Part shown: positions 6,785 to 26,293 of the stretch, piece by piece
Numbering within the stretch: position 1 is the first letter of the stretch
Layout: every line of letters begins with the position of its first letter
From: a virus
Length of the DNA: 26,293 bases
IMG/VR virus record: IMGVR_UViG_3300044631_002598
Location: 1 to 26,293 of that record
Reading direction: 5' to 3' (one strand)
The notes under the pieces: generated by a model
What the model was told of the DNA's origin: nothing
The model's database searches: none
What the model saw: the letters and a program-made list of their open reading frames with translations, nothing else
Program-made: the position numbers and the translations under genes

Positions 6785-9517
6785 CTAAATTACTCCTTTA
6801 TTGCGACAATAATCGACAACAGATTCGAATAAGCCGTGAGAAATTTTATGTGGAACTCTAGTTTCACACATATCGTATGGACAGTAAGCAGAACGTCTTC
6901 CTGTAAGAATAATATTACCATTTAACATTTCTTGGATGGATACACTCCAATCTAAAAGCTGATATAAATTCTGTAACATATCCAGGTCAACTGCTTTACC
7001 ATCAGTAATATCAGCTTGACCCCAAGTTGATCTAACGTAATCTAAAACTTCTTCAGAAGATTTTTGATTATGTACTAATAACTGAAGCTGCTGAATTTTG
7101 TTCAAATGCTGAATAAGCTGATTTTCAGCATTTTGAAAAGGTTGACTATCTCTTAAAGTGATGTTTAAATCTCTGTAGTGTTTAGAAACATACTCTACTA
7201 AAGTACTATAGACAAGGTACTGTTTTGGAAAGATTTCTTGAGAGTTATATAAAAAATCTACTTTATGAAGAAGTTCTTTTAACTGTCGTGCAGTATTCCA
7301 TTGAATAAGTACATCAGACATAGTAAGAGTTTTGTTTAAAATTTTAGCAAAAAATTTAGAGACATGTTTAAAGTCTCTAACGTATTTGACTTTATCCTTA
7401 GCAATTTGAAAAAGTCGCACACCTTTTTTAGGCTGTACAAAAGAATGGAGTAAAGAAAGTTCGTAAGTAGACTCAATTCCGTGTGTAAGTTGTCTATCTT
7501 CAGGAAGTATGTGAGATAAAAATTTAGTGTTAGCAGCTATATTTTCAATTAATACTTCGTCTCTACAAAGAAGTGCTACAGTCATTAAAGTATCTAACTC
7601 TCCTGGAATACTGTAATAAATTTCAGCATCGTCCCAAGCATTTACAACTTTAAAAGGAATCTCAGTAGTAATTGGAATATATGGAGCTGGTTCCCATCTA
7701 GAAAGATTACTTTTTAGTACTTTAATTAGAAGTTTTCCTTCCTGTTTTCTTCTTTCAGCAGCAGAAAGTGTTGCAGCTTTAATTTCTTCTACAGTTTCTT
7801 GTTCTTGCTCATCTATTTCTTCAGACCAATCAAATTTTTCTACTTCTACACCTTCATAATCTAAAACTAAAGAAGATTCTAAAAGCAGTTTAGTAGCTTT
7901 AGATGCAGTAGCTTTAAATTTTGCAAACTCTTGAGAAAGTTCCAATAATTTAGCTGATATCCATGTTTCTTCTGGATCAGAGTCCTCCGAAATAGGTTTT
8001 TCGACATCTTCTTCTACAGACAAAGATTTCACTTTTAATTCTGCATAAGTTCCATGCTTAGTTACTAAATATCTGTTTTTCTTTAAATTAGAAGGACCTA
8101 AACGTAAATAAATAGGATGATCCAATACTCTGGAAATATCATAAGAAGTCCTAATTAATTTTTTTTTCAATTTACCTGCTACTCTTTCGTTTTGAATACT
8201 TACTAATGTAACAGATAAATCTAAAAACATTTTTTCAGACTGATGATAAAATTTGATGTCTGAGTCTCCTGGAAAAGTAAATTGTAAATCTTTACTTTCC
8301 ACAATACTAGCTAATGTATGTAATACCGTAGCTTCTCCTTGTGTATCTCTATAAGAGTACCAAGAACTCAACGTATACAAACATGCTTTATACCATTGAA
8401 TAAAATCAGTCTGATTTAAATTTGCTTGAAGTACTTTAGAAGCAGATAAAGAAGCTTGTTGAAGTCTTTCAAGTATCTTAGTTTTAGTATTATCTTTCCA
8501 AAGAATACTTTCTCTGGAAGGAGAAACATCAATATCTTCCGGAAGTACTTTTAATCCAATGTTAGCTGAAAGCTCTTTTAACTCTAACTCGTTAAAGTTA
8601 ATACTTCCGTAATTAACTCTGTTTAAGATCAAGTAAGGTTTATTAAAATAAGAACTATCCGTAATAACTAAATACTCATCTTCATACAATACTTTCGGAT
8701 GAAAGTTTTTTACAATAGATGCGGAGTTTTCATGTACAGTATACACTACCTCAGTAAAAAACATCAACTGTTTTTCTACTGCTTTTTCATACTCTGTCCA
8801 ATGGTGCTTTTTAGTTTCAATTTTAATAAGCGTTCCATTCTTTTCAGTGGTAGGAGCAGCATAAATACTTTTATAAGGCTCAGTTGGGTGAGATTTAATA
8901 AGAATGTTAGGTTGTCCTGTATCTAAGTTGTAAGAAGGAATTAAAGATTCAAAGTTAGAATTGTAAACATTAAACTTCATGTGAAGTCCATTGTACCAGG
9001 TTTCTATTGTAAAGAAATCTGCTACAGATAATCCCGCCTTACCTCCTAATCCAAACTTACCTATAGGTACCTTAGAGAGTCTTTTAGTAGAAAATCCAAG
9101 ATTAAAGTACTTCAAAATTCTGGAAGGTCCAATACCTACTCCATAATCTCTAAAAGTAATATAATCTCTTTCAGTTAACGGAGTTTTATGGTAATCAATG
9201 TAGACTTTGTTATCTTCAGATAACCAGGCAGGATCATAATAAGCAGCATCAAACTTACTATCTATCAACAAAGGGTCTTCAGTAGTTTCTATGTAGTACT
9301 TGTTAACTGGACAACCTTTTACTAAAATATCCAAAGCCATGGACTTCTCAGAATTTGCATCTAAGCAATTAGATGTTAACTCTCTGACAGTACTTTGGAT
9401 AGGAAATTGGTATTGATAACCCTGCAAAACTCCTAACATCATATCAAAAGATGCACGATCAATTTGTTTTACCCATCCGGTGTTGATATCGTTTTGGGAA
9501 CTATTAAGTAATGACAT
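6785..9517 (-). CDS. rIIA: rIIA-like GHKL/HSP90-type ATPase
   Basis: A 910-residue protein with an N-terminal Bergerat-fold ATP-binding domain: the N box E46-x3-N50-x2-D53 (TVRELTSNCLDAN), the G1 box D124-x-G126-x-G128 (FRDYGVGIG), and the glycine-rich lid GFSTKR to KFGLGGKAG (141-162). The order and the adjacent rIIB-like gene identify it as an rIIA homologue; T4 rIIA is about 725 residues, so this one carries extra C-terminal sequence. The C-terminal half is long, helical and highly charged, with an acidic stretch at about 550-610. It overlaps the primase gene by 14 nt, placing it inside the replication operon. Confidence 0.82.
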   Translation of the reverse strand: MSLLNSSQNDINTGWVKQIDRASFDMMLGVLQGYQYQFPIQSTVRELTSNCLDANSEKSMALDILVKGCPVNKYYIETTEDPLLIDSKFDAAYYDPAWLSEDNKVYIDYHKTPLTERDYITFRDYGVGIGPSRILKYFNLGFSTKRLSKVPIGKFGLGGKAGLSVADFFTIETWYNGLHMKFNVYNSNFESLIPSYNLDTGQPNILIKSHPTEPYKSIYAAPTTEKNGTLIKIETKKHHWTEYEKAVEKQLMFFTEVVYTVHENSASIVKNFHPKVLYEDEYLVITDSSYFNKPYLILNRVNYGSINFNELELKELSANIGLKVLPEDIDVSPSRESILWKDNTKTKILERLQQASLSASKVLQANLNQTDFIQWYKACLYTLSSWYSYRDTQGEATVLHTLASIVESKDLQFTFPGDSDIKFYHQSEKMFLDLSVTLVSIQNERVAGKLKKKLIRTSYDISRVLDHPIYLRLGPSNLKKNRYLVTKHGTYAELKVKSLSVEEDVEKPISEDSDPEETWISAKLLELSQEFAKFKATASKATKLLLESSLVLDYEGVEVEKFDWSEEIDEQEQETVEEIKAATLSAAERRKQEGKLLIKVLKSNLSRWEPAPYIPITTEIPFKVVNAWDDAEIYYSIPGELDTLMTVALLCRDEVLIENIAANTKFLSHILPEDRQLTHGIESTYELSLLHSFVQPKKGVRLFQIAKDKVKYVRDFKHVSKFFAKILNKTLTMSDVLIQWNTARQLKELLHKVDFLYNSQEIFPKQYLVYSTLVEYVSKHYRDLNITLRDSQPFQNAENQLIQHLNKIQQLQLLVHNQKSSEEVLDYVRSTWGQADITDGKAVDLDMLQNLYQLLDWSVSIQEMLNGNIILTGRRSAYCPYDMCETRVPHKISHGLFESVVDYCRNKGVI

Positions 9518-10667
9518 TTACAGTTTTTAAGAAAATATCTAAGGGAAGTTCATATCTCTTAGAATGGGTGAATAAAATTATTTGAGGCTCTACAGTCATA
9601 CTGTATTCGATGCAAAGTCGTTCTAACCAAATGGTTTCTAACTTACCAGAGTTTAAAAAGGAAATACTTACTCTCTGAAATTTACTCATTAACTGACTTT
9701 CCAACAATAAAAAATCTTCTTGCATTCGTTTTAGAAGTTTTAAAAGAGTTTCAACACCATATTTTTTTGCAAAGTCTGTAGGATCTTTTTCTCCACTATC
9801 TGTAGGAATATGGGTAGCAGCAAAAGGATATAAATGTTCTGAAGTTTTAAGATCATTGTCAAACAATGTGAAAACTTTTCCTTTGTACTTCCACTTTAAC
9901 CAGTCTAAAAAAAGTGGATTTGGGTAGTTGTTTTCAGCTTTAGAAGCTACAACATCAAACCCAAGTTGCCATAAAAGCATAACATCTTTATAAGACTTAG
10001 TAATAATACAAACTTCTTTACCTCTTAATTGCTCAAATCCTGGAACACAGCTATCAGTCCAATCCATAAAAAATCTTTTAGGATTAGGTTGATATAACTG
10101 ATATCTTCCTTGAATTTTGTAAGCATACATTCTTCCTCTAGCATGAAATGTTTCTTGAGTATCAGGGTATAGCTTATAAAAAGAAACTGCTTGTACTTTA
10201 AAATGTTCTAAAGTTTCAAGAGTAATAAAATAGCTTGACCAGTATTCTAAATCTGTTTGAGTAAAAGGTCTTGCTTTGAAAGAAATCTGGCAAGGAGGTT
10301 TTCGTACTGGCACTATTACAAGTGTTTTACTCGCTTTTGTACTCCCTTCTATTAAACCAAAATCTTCTGCTACTTTAATCAAAGCTTCCCAGCGAGTTAA
10401 AGAATACAAAATTCTTACTAAATCAAAAATATCCCCAAAGTTGGGAGCTGGTAATCCGGCATCCTTCCATAAAAACTCATGAGGATCTTCAGGATTTCCT
10501 TTCTTTCTTTCAAAAACTCCAAAAGAAGCTTTATCATCTACTGTACGAAGAGTGGAATTAGTTTTGGCTCCTATAACAGGCTCATAGCCTAGATAAAAAC
10601 AATAGAGCGAGTACTCGTCGACTCGCTCTAAAATTGTTAACTCTGAAATATCAGAAAATGAAAGCAT
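9504..10667 (-). CDS. DNA primase (TOPRIM, DnaG-like, divergent)
   Basis: A 387-residue primase candidate that would make RNA primers for lagging-strand synthesis. The N-terminal part (about 20-85) keeps the outline of a primase zinc-binding domain (YLGYEP..., SFGVFERKKG, FLWKDAG...FGDIFDLVRIL) but lacks its zinc ligands. The TOPRIM domain begins at VCIITKSYKDVMLL (219-232), continues with GFDVVAS and has LFDNDL (268-273) as the acidic D-x-D motif. KDPTDFAKKYG (295-305) follows, as in other primases. The usual catalytic Glu of the first TOPRIM motif is replaced (T-K-S-Y-K-D). It lies three genes after the DnaB-type helicase in the same operon. Confidence 0.8.
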   Translation of the reverse strand: MLSFSDISELTILERVDEYSLYCFYLGYEPVIGAKTNSTLRTVDDKASFGVFERKKGNPEDPHEFLWKDAGLPAPNFGDIFDLVRILYSLTRWEALIKVAEDFGLIEGSTKASKTLVIVPVRKPPCQISFKARPFTQTDLEYWSSYFITLETLEHFKVQAVSFYKLYPDTQETFHARGRMYAYKIQGRYQLYQPNPKRFFMDWTDSCVPGFEQLRGKEVCIITKSYKDVMLLWQLGFDVVASKAENNYPNPLFLDWLKWKYKGKVFTLFDNDLKTSEHLYPFAATHIPTDSGEKDPTDFAKKYGVETLLKLLKRMQEDFLLLESQLMSKFQRVSISFLNSGKLETIWLERLCIEYSMTVEPQIILFTHSKRYELPLDIFLKTVNVIT

Positions 10668-23821: not shown

Positions 23822-24298
23822 CTACGAAACAGGAAGAATCTTAGAAGCTGTTGCACATGTAACTCTGATTACATCTGATAACAGAAATCCTTGTACTAAT
23901 GTACCAGGAGTATTCTTTGATTCATTCTCAAATTTCAGATCGACGTTGTAATTAGTTACTTTTACAACTCCATCTGCAACTAAGACTTCCGCTGTTACTC
24001 CAATAACAATTGGAGGTTGATTGTTTAAAGACACTGTAATGTGAGCATTAGGTGTTTTTAAAAGACTTTCAAAAATGGTTGAAGAACTCATTAGATTTTT
24101 TTTAGTTAATAAAATTTTTTGTGCTAAGACTTTTACATTCCGTAGGTGTACACTGCCTCTACCTCGACTACCTTTGTCTATATAGAACAAGTTAGTCTGT
24201 GGATTAAATGAAGCTTCTTGTATGTACTTGTTTAACGGCAAATAAGCTATAGGTTTTAGAATTTCAATAAGGTACACGTTTGTAGGACTACAGCTCAT
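23822..24298 (-). CDS. Unknown protein after the ligase
   Basis: A 158-residue protein from the ATG at 24298 (MSCSPTNVYLIEIL), overlapping the ligase stop by 11 nt. An in-frame ATG at 24352 would overlap by 65 nt and its 18 extra residues look unlike a separate domain. Beta-rich throughout (HITVSLNNQPPIVIGVTAEVLVADG-like strands, GTLVQGFLLSDVIRVTCATASKIL). No family is recognised. It is the last gene before the terminator at 23714-23746. Confidence 0.62.
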   Translation of the reverse strand: MSCSPTNVYLIEILKPIAYLPLNKYIQEASFNPQTNLFYIDKGSRGRGSVHLRNVKVLAQKILLTKKNLMSSSTIFESLLKTPNAHITVSLNNQPPIVIGVTAEVLVADGVVKVTNYNVDLKFENESKNTPGTLVQGFLLSDVIRVTCATASKILPVS

Positions 24299-25481
24299 CC
24301 CTAAAAGCTTTTCCAATTGGAAATCTAGGAAAGCCATCTTCAGTAAGTCCAAAGTGTTTGATTGTGATCATTCCTGTATGACTAGGATGTTTGGCGAGTT
24401 CAAGTTTTTCTGTTTTTGTACCTATCATCTTGGCTCTAAATTCTCCAGATGCAGAGCTACAAACAGCAATTAAATCTTCTTCTCTTTGTCCGTATTCCCA
24501 GAACATAAACTTGTACTCAGTTTCATCGAACTCTTTAACTTTCAACAATTCTCTGCTTCTGGCACCGGCAGCATATTTACCATGTAAAAGACGAATCATA
24601 GCTCCTTCATATCCTTGTTGAACCCAGGTATCATGATGAGCTTTAACTTCATCTTCATTATTTGCTATCCAAGTGGCTACAGGCCAGATTTCAGAGGATG
24701 CGATTGAATCCACAAACTCTACTACTTTTTTCCACCTAACATGTTGAAGATCGTCCGTAATAGTGTCATAGACTCTGAACTTAAGTTTTAAGCTTTCAGG
24801 TCTTTGCTTTTTTACAGCAGCAATGATTTCTTGAAATGTAAGCTCATCTGAATAGATTTCACCGTCAAGAATAAACTGATAGGGCACATCTTCATCTAGT
24901 ACAGCGTCGTAAACACATACTTTTATGTGCTCTAAAGTTGTATACTCTTTACCACTACGAGATAAAAAGGTAATACTTTCTTCTCCGTTTACAATCATCA
25001 AGCATCTTACACCATCAAGTTTAGGTTGTACCATTACTGGGTATTTGATTTCTTTGATTTTTTTCCAGTCTGTGGCTAACATTGGTTTGGCGTTTCCTGA
25101 CGCATCAGTGTTTTCTTGAGGTAAAAACTCTTCAAGACGCTCTTGTAGAATTTTATTCCACATTTCTTTCGAAAAGTCATCAGCATTTTTTGTAGGACCA
25201 ACTATGGCAAGGTTTAAGTCCTTGAGACTCTTGTAACCTTCATCACGTTTTTTGTTCCAGTCAGACTGTGCTTGACTGATAGCTTGCTCCACAGGTGTAG
25301 TTTCATTAGATTTTCCAATGTTTTTACCTTCCCGAATTTCCTCTTTGTGTTGTATAGGTGAAGTAGTACCTAATTGTCCGGATTCTTTAAAAATAGTAGG
25401 ATAGGTAAGTGCTAAAACTGCAACTTTCCAATACTGAATTTTTCCGGTTTTTGATCTTTTATAAAGTGTATCCAATTCCAT
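24288..25481 (-). CDS. ATP-dependent DNA ligase with N-terminal extension
   Basis: A 397-residue ligase that would seal nicks after FEN processing. Nucleotidyltransferase motifs: motif I with the adenylated lysine K154 (QPKLDGVRC), the motif III region FILDGEIYS (203-211), motif IV EGAMIRL (292-298) and motif V LLKVKEF (312-318). A short OB-fold-like C-terminus (about 325-397) follows. The first 120 residues are an extension: YKRSKTGKIQYWKV and EGKNIGKSNETTPVEQAISQ resemble a WGR-type domain seen in some viral ligases (my recollection). The gene starts 9 nt after the lipoprotein-like gene. Confidence 0.92.
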   Translation of the reverse strand: MELDTLYKRSKTGKIQYWKVAVLALTYPTIFKESGQLGTTSPIQHKEEIREGKNIGKSNETTPVEQAISQAQSDWNKKRDEGYKSLKDLNLAIVGPTKNADDFSKEMWNKILQERLEEFLPQENTDASGNAKPMLATDWKKIKEIKYPVMVQPKLDGVRCLMIVNGEESITFLSRSGKEYTTLEHIKVCVYDAVLDEDVPYQFILDGEIYSDELTFQEIIAAVKKQRPESLKLKFRVYDTITDDLQHVRWKKVVEFVDSIASSEIWPVATWIANNEDEVKAHHDTWVQQGYEGAMIRLLHGKYAAGARSRELLKVKEFDETEYKFMFWEYGQREEDLIAVCSSASGEFRAKMIGTKTEKLELAKHPSHTGMITIKHFGLTEDGFPRFPIGKAFRDEL

Positions 25482-25490
25482 AAAGTACTA

Positions 25491-25814
25491 TTAAAAAAAT
25501 ATTCTTTGTGGAATTGGAGAGTAAACCCGAATATTCTTAGGACAACTGAATTGAAGTACAATAGATGTTGTTCCAGTGGGTACGTGGAGAGTAGCAGAAG
25601 GCCATACTTTGAAAGGATGTTGAGTAACTTTAAGAGGTTCTTGTACTCCTCCAGGAGAATAAATTGCTGTTACAGCAACCTCTTCTGTAGTACAAAACTC
25701 AATGAAAGTTTCTCCGGCAGGAATAGAAGACTGTTGTACAAGCCCTGTAGTGGATTTTGTACAAGCAAATGTGGTAGCCATTAAAACGGCTAAAAGAAAA
25801 ATTACTGATTTCAT
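25491..25814 (-). CDS. Small predicted lipoprotein, first gene of the operon
   Basis: A 107-residue protein with a signal sequence: K2, hydrophobic 4-12 (VIFLLAVLM), then TTFAC with Cys18 as the likely lipidation site in a relaxed lipobox. The mature part is beta-rich (VAVTAIYSPGGV, TTSIVLQFSCPKNIRVYS). The start is fixed by an A-rich leader without Shine-Dalgarno, as is usual in Bacteroidota. The residues after Cys18 (TKSTTG) lack the acidic surface-export signal, so a periplasm-facing lipoprotein is more likely. Phage lipoproteins can block receptor or superinfection (T5 Llp); that role is inference. Confidence 0.72.
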   Translation of the reverse strand: MKSVIFLLAVLMATTFACTKSTTGLVQQSSIPAGETFIEFCTTEEVAVTAIYSPGGVQEPLKVTQHPFKVWPSATLHVPTGTTSIVLQFSCPKNIRVYSPIPQRIFF

Positions 25815-25883
25815 GATTTTTTTGTTTTTAAATTAAGCTTCTAGGTTACAGCAGAAGCATTCTGTTTTAAGTAAAAATAGTAA
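25815..25883 (-). promoter_or_regulatory. Leader of the leftward operon with a hairpin
   Basis: This AT-rich stretch between the terminator at 25884-25926 and the first ATG must hold the operon promoter if the terminator is efficient. A GCTTCT (25837-25842) / AGAAGC (25853-25858) hairpin with a 10-nt loop lies about 22 nt upstream of the ATG. I cannot point to a convincing Bacteroidota -7/-33 pair. Confidence 0.4.
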
Positions 25884-25926
25884 AAGTGGGGTTTTCTCCA
25901 ATCCTTCCTGAAGAAAACCACCACTT
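25884..25926 (-). terminator. Strong leftward terminator
   Basis: Stem of 13 bp, AAGTGG-GGTTTTC (25884-25896) with GAAAACC-A-CCACTT (25913-25926), one bulged A and a 16-nt loop. Read leftward, the stem is followed by TTTACTATTTTTAC, a U-rich tract. It would end a leftward transcript coming from 25945 and beyond, so something is transcribed there. Confidence 0.75.
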
Positions 25927-25927
25927 A

Positions 25928-25944
25928 TGCTTGCTAAACAAGCA
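25928..25944. other. Short hairpin beside the terminator
   Basis: TGCTTG (25928-25933) / CAAGCA (25939-25944) with a CTAAA loop, 1 nt from the terminator stem. Together with the terminator it would form two stacked hairpins at the 3' end of a leftward RNA. Confidence 0.5.
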
Positions 25945-26293
25945 ATAGTTTTAAAAATAAAGTACAGGTGCCTCTTCCGCTGTCATACGGGCCTAGAGGA
26001 TGGGACACATTCAACAAGCTTCTTTACGGCTTTCAACATTCCACTTGTTCTGTACTATAAAAACAACAGTCTCCGTTACAAATAGAAAGACTTCCCACTA
26101 AGTAGAAGTACAGCATTCTATGTCTGCTCCAAACACTCCTGTAACGAGGAGCCACTCTAAGGGGAACTTTTTACAGGAATCGAACCCTACCCTCTTACCA
26201 CATTCTGAAATGTTGTTCTGCAGACGACTGGTGTTTCAATAAGTTAAAAAGAGCCTTACTGAGGGAGGCTGTCATCGCTGACTTTATTCTTCT
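25945..26293 (-). other. G+C-elevated non-coding region, candidate structured RNA
   Basis: About 350 nt to the window edge without a convincing ORF on either strand (longest candidates are about 26-42 codons with no good start or context). Counting five lines by hand gives about 43% G+C, compared with roughly one third elsewhere. It contains short inverted repeats (for example TAGAA/TTCTA at 26103-26120, CTCCT/AGGAG near 26137-26152, AGCCT/AGGCT near 26252-26270) and, on the minus strand, GGTTCGATTCC, which fits a tRNA T-arm but has no matching tRNA. It ends leftward at a strong terminator. A structured RNA is an inference. Confidence 0.4.

Follow-up and report, generated by a model that had tools for sequence, protein, structure and literature searches.

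A very probable orphan non-coding RNA gene in a phage contig and an apparently undescribed family of GTPase-centre-mimic RNAs in jumbo phages

Introduction

Translation proteins, tRNAs and tmRNA are known from the genomes of large phages (PMC7162821), and phage T4 has a stable RNA of 139 nt, RNA C (species 1 RNA), whose function is unknown (PMC9697503). The long non-coding gaps of large phages are rarely examined, and the candidate RNA described here is an orphan from one such gap. It lies at the right end of a 26,293-nucleotide phage contig (IMG/VR record IMGVR_UViG_3300044631_002598; the whole stretch is called the window), where an initial annotation had proposed a large structured RNA. The main discovery of this study is not that RNA but a family of phage RNAs, called GTPase-centre mimics here, that resemble a part of 23S rRNA.

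Results

A gene-free stretch that ends in its own terminator

The right end of the window, which is also the end of the contig, contains the following features.

24288..25481, minus strand: ATP-dependent DNA ligase, which served as the query for relatives
25491..25814, minus strand: small lipoprotein-like gene, 107 aa, downstream of the candidate RNA
25815-26293, minus-strand reading: gene-free stretch at the right end of the 26,293-base contig
25837..25858, minus strand: second terminator-like hairpin, GCTTCTGCTGTAACCTAGAAGC, ahead of the lipoprotein gene (terminator listing)
25884..25927, minus strand: strong terminator-like hairpin, then a T-rich run (sequence and folding)
25929..25943, minus strand: GCTTG-TTTAG-CAAGC, a small additional hairpin immediately before the terminator; its plus strand is listed as terminator-like
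25956..26288, minus strand: proposed RNA domain, non-coding by ORF and codon tests
26156..26164, minus strand: 9-mer CCCCTTAGA
26176..26186, minus strand: T-arm-like 11-mer GGTTCGATTCC with no tRNA around it

The longest frames of the gap in the ORF listing are only 20-52 aa, and its small ORFs have codon log-odds of -0.25 to -0.37, compared with +0.32 to +0.47 for 13 phage genes. Together with a single 1-nt indel inside the region between the window and its sister contigs, this bears out the earlier statement that no credible gene is present. The neighboring lipoprotein-like gene had no PHROG match. The G+C content of the stretch is 0.418 (41.8%) against a mean of 0.336, a value matched by 0.3% of other 349-nt stretches; the G+C is thus raised as first reported, but by about 8 points rather than about 10.

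The leftward run into a strong terminator with an extra hairpin (25884-25927 and 25929-25943) was confirmed, as an 83-nt stretch with both hairpins (25884-25943 region) had a fold z of -5.5. In the minimum-free-energy fold the domain is closed by 8 bp between AATAAAGT (26281-26288) and ACTTTATT (25956-25963), an A/T-rich helix that could be due to chance. The 341-nt domain had a fold z of -0.4, or -1.8 once the terminator was included; except in the terminator hairpin, the predicted structure has no gain in stability over shuffled sequences. However, the true tmRNA of one relative (L006) has a fold z of only -1.3, so fold energy neither supports nor refutes a structure for the window RNA, and fold stability was dropped as uninformative. 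Of the "large structured RNA" first proposed, a discrete non-coding leftward unit with its own terminator fits the sequence, whereas the strong fold that this name implies is not supported, the fold energy being ordinary.

Sister contigs extend the gap

An exact-pattern search of IMG/VR recovered L002 and L003, two contigs from the same phage species, both of which extend past the window edge and have the same gap with few changes. The locus is conserved in both, and their sequences are near-identical to the window domain (two substitutions and one 1-nt indel). The whole gap in L002 is 676 nt (9456-10131) from a 117-aa gene to the lipoprotein gene, all leftward, and extends about 200 nt beyond the window edge. 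These extra 200 nt end in a further terminator, a perfect 9-bp hairpin with a run of seven T, GCAATTAGG..CCTAATTGC-ATTTTTTT. This terminator suggests that the locus probably makes two RNAs, and that the gap probably consists of two RNA units with the right one ended by its own terminator. The unit had been expected to run past the window; the gap does so, but the added part is in part a second RNA.

No match of the window RNA to tRNA, tmRNA or Rfam families

No tRNA was found in the region by ARAGORN, by ARAGORN with introns allowed or by the Rfam tRNA model at E<=10, and no tmRNA was found by ARAGORN or RF00023. In cmscan no Rfam family, ROOL and GOLLD included, matched at the gathering threshold or at E<=10. 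The initial annotation had suggested both the ARAGORN and the Infernal/Rfam searches, and its description of a T-arm-like 11-mer without a tRNA, in an RNA with no specific match to ROOL or GOLLD, agrees with their outcome. The stem of the 11-mer is weakly paired beyond two G-C pairs, and the element may be a chance occurrence. A placement by eye of the T-arm in a permuted tmRNA or a tRNA-Cys-like fold was rejected because no supporting arms were present. The pattern GGTTCGATTCC-N6-20-CCCCTTAGA returned only the same species and five unrelated matches from IMG/VR, several of them tRNA-like arms, and the window RNA had no similarity to E. coli 16S or 23S.

A BLAST search with the window RNA over 50,697 phage records was empty, and one over five large relatives, among them the 735-kb LR756501, gave no convincing match. 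Across the BLAST, pattern, profile and covariance-model searches, no homologue appeared beyond the species itself.

RNA content of relatives found through the ligase

The DNA ligase query gave relatives at 43-68% identity, and the closest named phage record by ligase was the 735-kb huge phage LR756501 (37.7%). L013, L006 and L010 are one contig, as are L017 and L048. Upstream of the ligase the relatives have unrelated sequences or other genes. Several have many non-coding gaps of 150-700 nt, with long non-coding gaps at 2.0-6.1 per 10 kb versus 0.4 in the window; comparison of these gaps with the window RNA gave short scraps only. The 9-mer CCCCTTAGA also occurs in non-coding stretches of L013 and L017, possibly by chance. 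The 9-mers GTAAGAGGG and CCCCTTAGA, common to the window and L013, were first read as homology, a reading that was abandoned when profiles gave no confirmation. The relatives also encode tmRNAs, as well as tRNAs whose anticodon arm contains an insert of 16-45 nt, far below group I intron length.

L015:9203-9333: insert-bearing tRNA
L033:28593-28710 and 31646-31756: insert-bearing tRNAs (735-kb huge phage)
L014:8264-8370: insert-bearing tRNA
L006:6866-7277: tmRNA
Contig of L008 (160 kb), 141134-141506: tmRNA

For the L006 tmRNA the predicted tag is AREKKKITGTSPY, which lacks the customary ALAA-like end. The ligase relatives also contain a second family of conserved non-coding sequences, with the motif ACCTCC..GTGA..CCCC.ACTTAG.

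L014:2700-2994, second non-coding family
L015:1678-2014, second non-coding family
L017:1620-1977, second non-coding family
L018:4115-4397, second non-coding family (by eye only)

Separately, 55 non-coding nt are 93% identical between L004:2127-2181 and L006:8073-8127, in two phages whose ligase DNA is about 75% identical, and the non-coding motif TTCTTTAAGGAGCANNNCCATATATGTAAGTGG occurs in L013 (=L010), L017 (=L048) and L047 and in no other IMG/VR contigs.

A family of GTPase-centre mimics

The gap directly after the tmRNA in L013 opens with a piece of 23S rRNA, identical to E. coli 1054-1088 at 30 of 35 positions, and the copied piece is the L11-binding GTPase centre. An exact sarcin-ricin-loop 13-mer, TAGTACGAGAGGA, follows it. 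At about 7785-7850 of L013, TAGTACGAGAGGA is accompanied by a CGGTAGCCAAATG piece that resembles 23S domain VI, and the order is collinear with 23S. A search pattern designed to leave out true 23S (shorter H43 loop) matched an unrelated 209-kb phage contig, with more than 30 nt identical, directly 3' of an RNA ligase gene. The loci are as follows.

L013:7543-7914 (=L006:7282-7653): GTPase-centre mimic
L058:1484-1734: GTPase-centre mimic
L061:590-847: GTPase-centre mimic
L057 and L062-L070 (not L071): further mimic loci
L050:4541-4611: short form

In L050:4541-5722 the short GTPase-centre-like RNA is directly downstream of a T4 Rnl1-type RNA ligase gene (PF09511), a neighbor which suggests an RNA-repair or decoy context.

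Among phage records, mimics were found in Xanthomonas XaC1 and XbC2, Pectobacterium CBB, Cronobacter GAP32 and Serratia BF, and additionally in Erwinia phages, Acinetobacter ME3 and Pseudomonas Milchi and UNO-G1W1. All of the 15 Lak megaphages had one. CBB and GAP32 have the mimic at a shared position, flanked by homologous genes, and in most annotated records the copy is intergenic or beneath a tiny predicted frame. A survey of eight genomes found it in GAP32, Lak-A1 and Milchi, all members already known, and not in 121Q, phiKZ, G, KVP40 or T4. Several matches were discarded: that in Paenibacillus phage Pd_22F is true rRNA, several short "phage" records are annotated 23S rRNA, matches in the genome collection look like coding chance matches or true rRNA, and T4-like matches of the XaC1 3' end are antisense within a gene and probably due to chance. 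Rfam had no match to the family, and it was not mentioned in the literature searched, which covered few subscription journals. The GTPase-centre-mimic RNAs of jumbo phages, which copy H42-H44 of 23S rRNA, are apparently an undescribed family, mostly unannotated.

The order of elements is a closing helix, H43, the H44 5' strand ATTTAAAGAG, an insert, the 3' half TTTGGCGTAAYAGCACAC and the partner strand of the closing helix. The 3' half corresponds to the 3' strand of the 23S GTPase centre; in most members the motif CCCTTAGAG precedes it. The insert within helix 44 varies widely in length, so that the whole unit, measured from H43 to the 3' half, has between 156 and 411 nt. The closing helix varies in sequence between phages while complementarity is kept (CCGTTG/CAACGG, GATTTGGTGG/CCACCAAATC, GTACAGAGG/CCTCTGTAC). 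In an alignment of 12 rows, E. coli 23S among them, 27 cells had two-sided changes compared with 9.7 +- 2.4 in shuffles (0 of 500 shuffles as high), a count biased toward structure because the two halves were hand-chosen and joined and the structure was read from the same sequences, and biased against it because the Lak rows are two columns out of register. Helix 1 had two-sided changes in 7 of 8 pairs, and the closing helix appears from these sequences to be strongly covarying.

When the window RNA was compared with this family, neither half (H43 hairpin with ATTTAAAGAG; TTTGGCGTAAYAGCACAC) was present within 4 errors. The nhmmer profiles of the halves (E<20) found known members and not the window species, and covariance model R1 found the tested members and E. 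coli 23S (62.9 bits) and nothing in the window RNA. The window RNA has CCCCTTAGAG at 26155-26164, without the rest of the CCCTTAGAG motif. As judged by these searches, the window RNA is outside the family.

Discussion

The features of this stretch make it very probable that it is a genuine non-coding RNA gene of a phage, an unclassified orphan without known relatives outside its species. The explanation tentatively preferred here, which may be correct, is a stand-alone phage RNA of about 340 nt that is transcribed leftward up to an intrinsic terminator of its own, with another RNA unit immediately beyond the end of the contig. Such an RNA would accumulate as a stable RNA and might act on the host translation apparatus, as is expected of the tRNAs, tmRNAs and ribosome-mimic RNAs of related large phages. 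A role in translation is suggested indirectly by what the relatives encode: numerous non-coding gaps, tRNAs with inserts, two tmRNAs and, in L013, a GTPase-centre mimic. Against this explanation stand the lack of excess fold stability in the domain (z -0.4), of a homologue outside the species and of membership in the mimic family.

The stretch could instead act as a long, structured leader (or an attenuator) for the lipoprotein-ligase operon, whose hairpins stop transcription unless a signal permits readthrough. This is somewhat unlikely: the stretch is on the same strand, immediately upstream of the operon, and has two terminator-like hairpins in series, but in relatives that share the ligase this place holds unrelated sequence or different genes, and nothing in Rfam resembled a known riboswitch or leader.

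The debris of a decayed tRNA or tRNA cluster, with the T-arm as a relic and neutral non-coding DNA around it, would explain the 11-mer without a tRNA, the tRNA genes that the sister contig has 1.5-4 kb upstream and the ordinary fold energy. However, it is rare for a phage to retain as much as 676 nt of neutral DNA, such debris would not be expected to show raised G+C or intact terminators, and the tRNA model gave no match even at E<=10, which together make this origin unlikely.

A further proposal, which is doubtful, places the window RNA in a group of fast-evolving phage RNAs that mimic or engage components of the host's translation apparatus. The GTPase-centre mimic of related large phages would be the clearest case, and the window RNA would copy a part not recognised here. 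That it is a divergent member of the mimic family itself is very improbable and largely refuted, as CCCCTTAGAG, shared with the conserved 3' motif, and a T-loop-like hairpin resembling that of XaC1 are set against the absence of both halves in the pattern, profile and covariance searches.

The mimic family points to a phage-encoded, free-standing copy of the ribosomal site at which L11 and the elongation-factor GTPases work. It might serve as a decoy or as a tool that redirects translation, and both ideas are directly testable in cultured phages.

Among known systems, ROOL and GOLLD resemble the window RNA in that they are long non-coding RNAs of phage or phage-like regions, whereas the window RNA is shorter, has no Rfam match at E<=10 and has no evident ornate fold. 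RNA C of T4, with which no sequence match was seen, has a T-arm (CCGGGTTCGAATCCCGG) and yet is annotated as misc_RNA rather than tRNA; its T-arm is at the 3' end, while that of the window RNA is internal and weakly paired. The window RNA differs from the mimic family in that it has neither rRNA-like half, but both are intergenic phage RNAs of similar size, and a member of that family is present in the sister phage L013.
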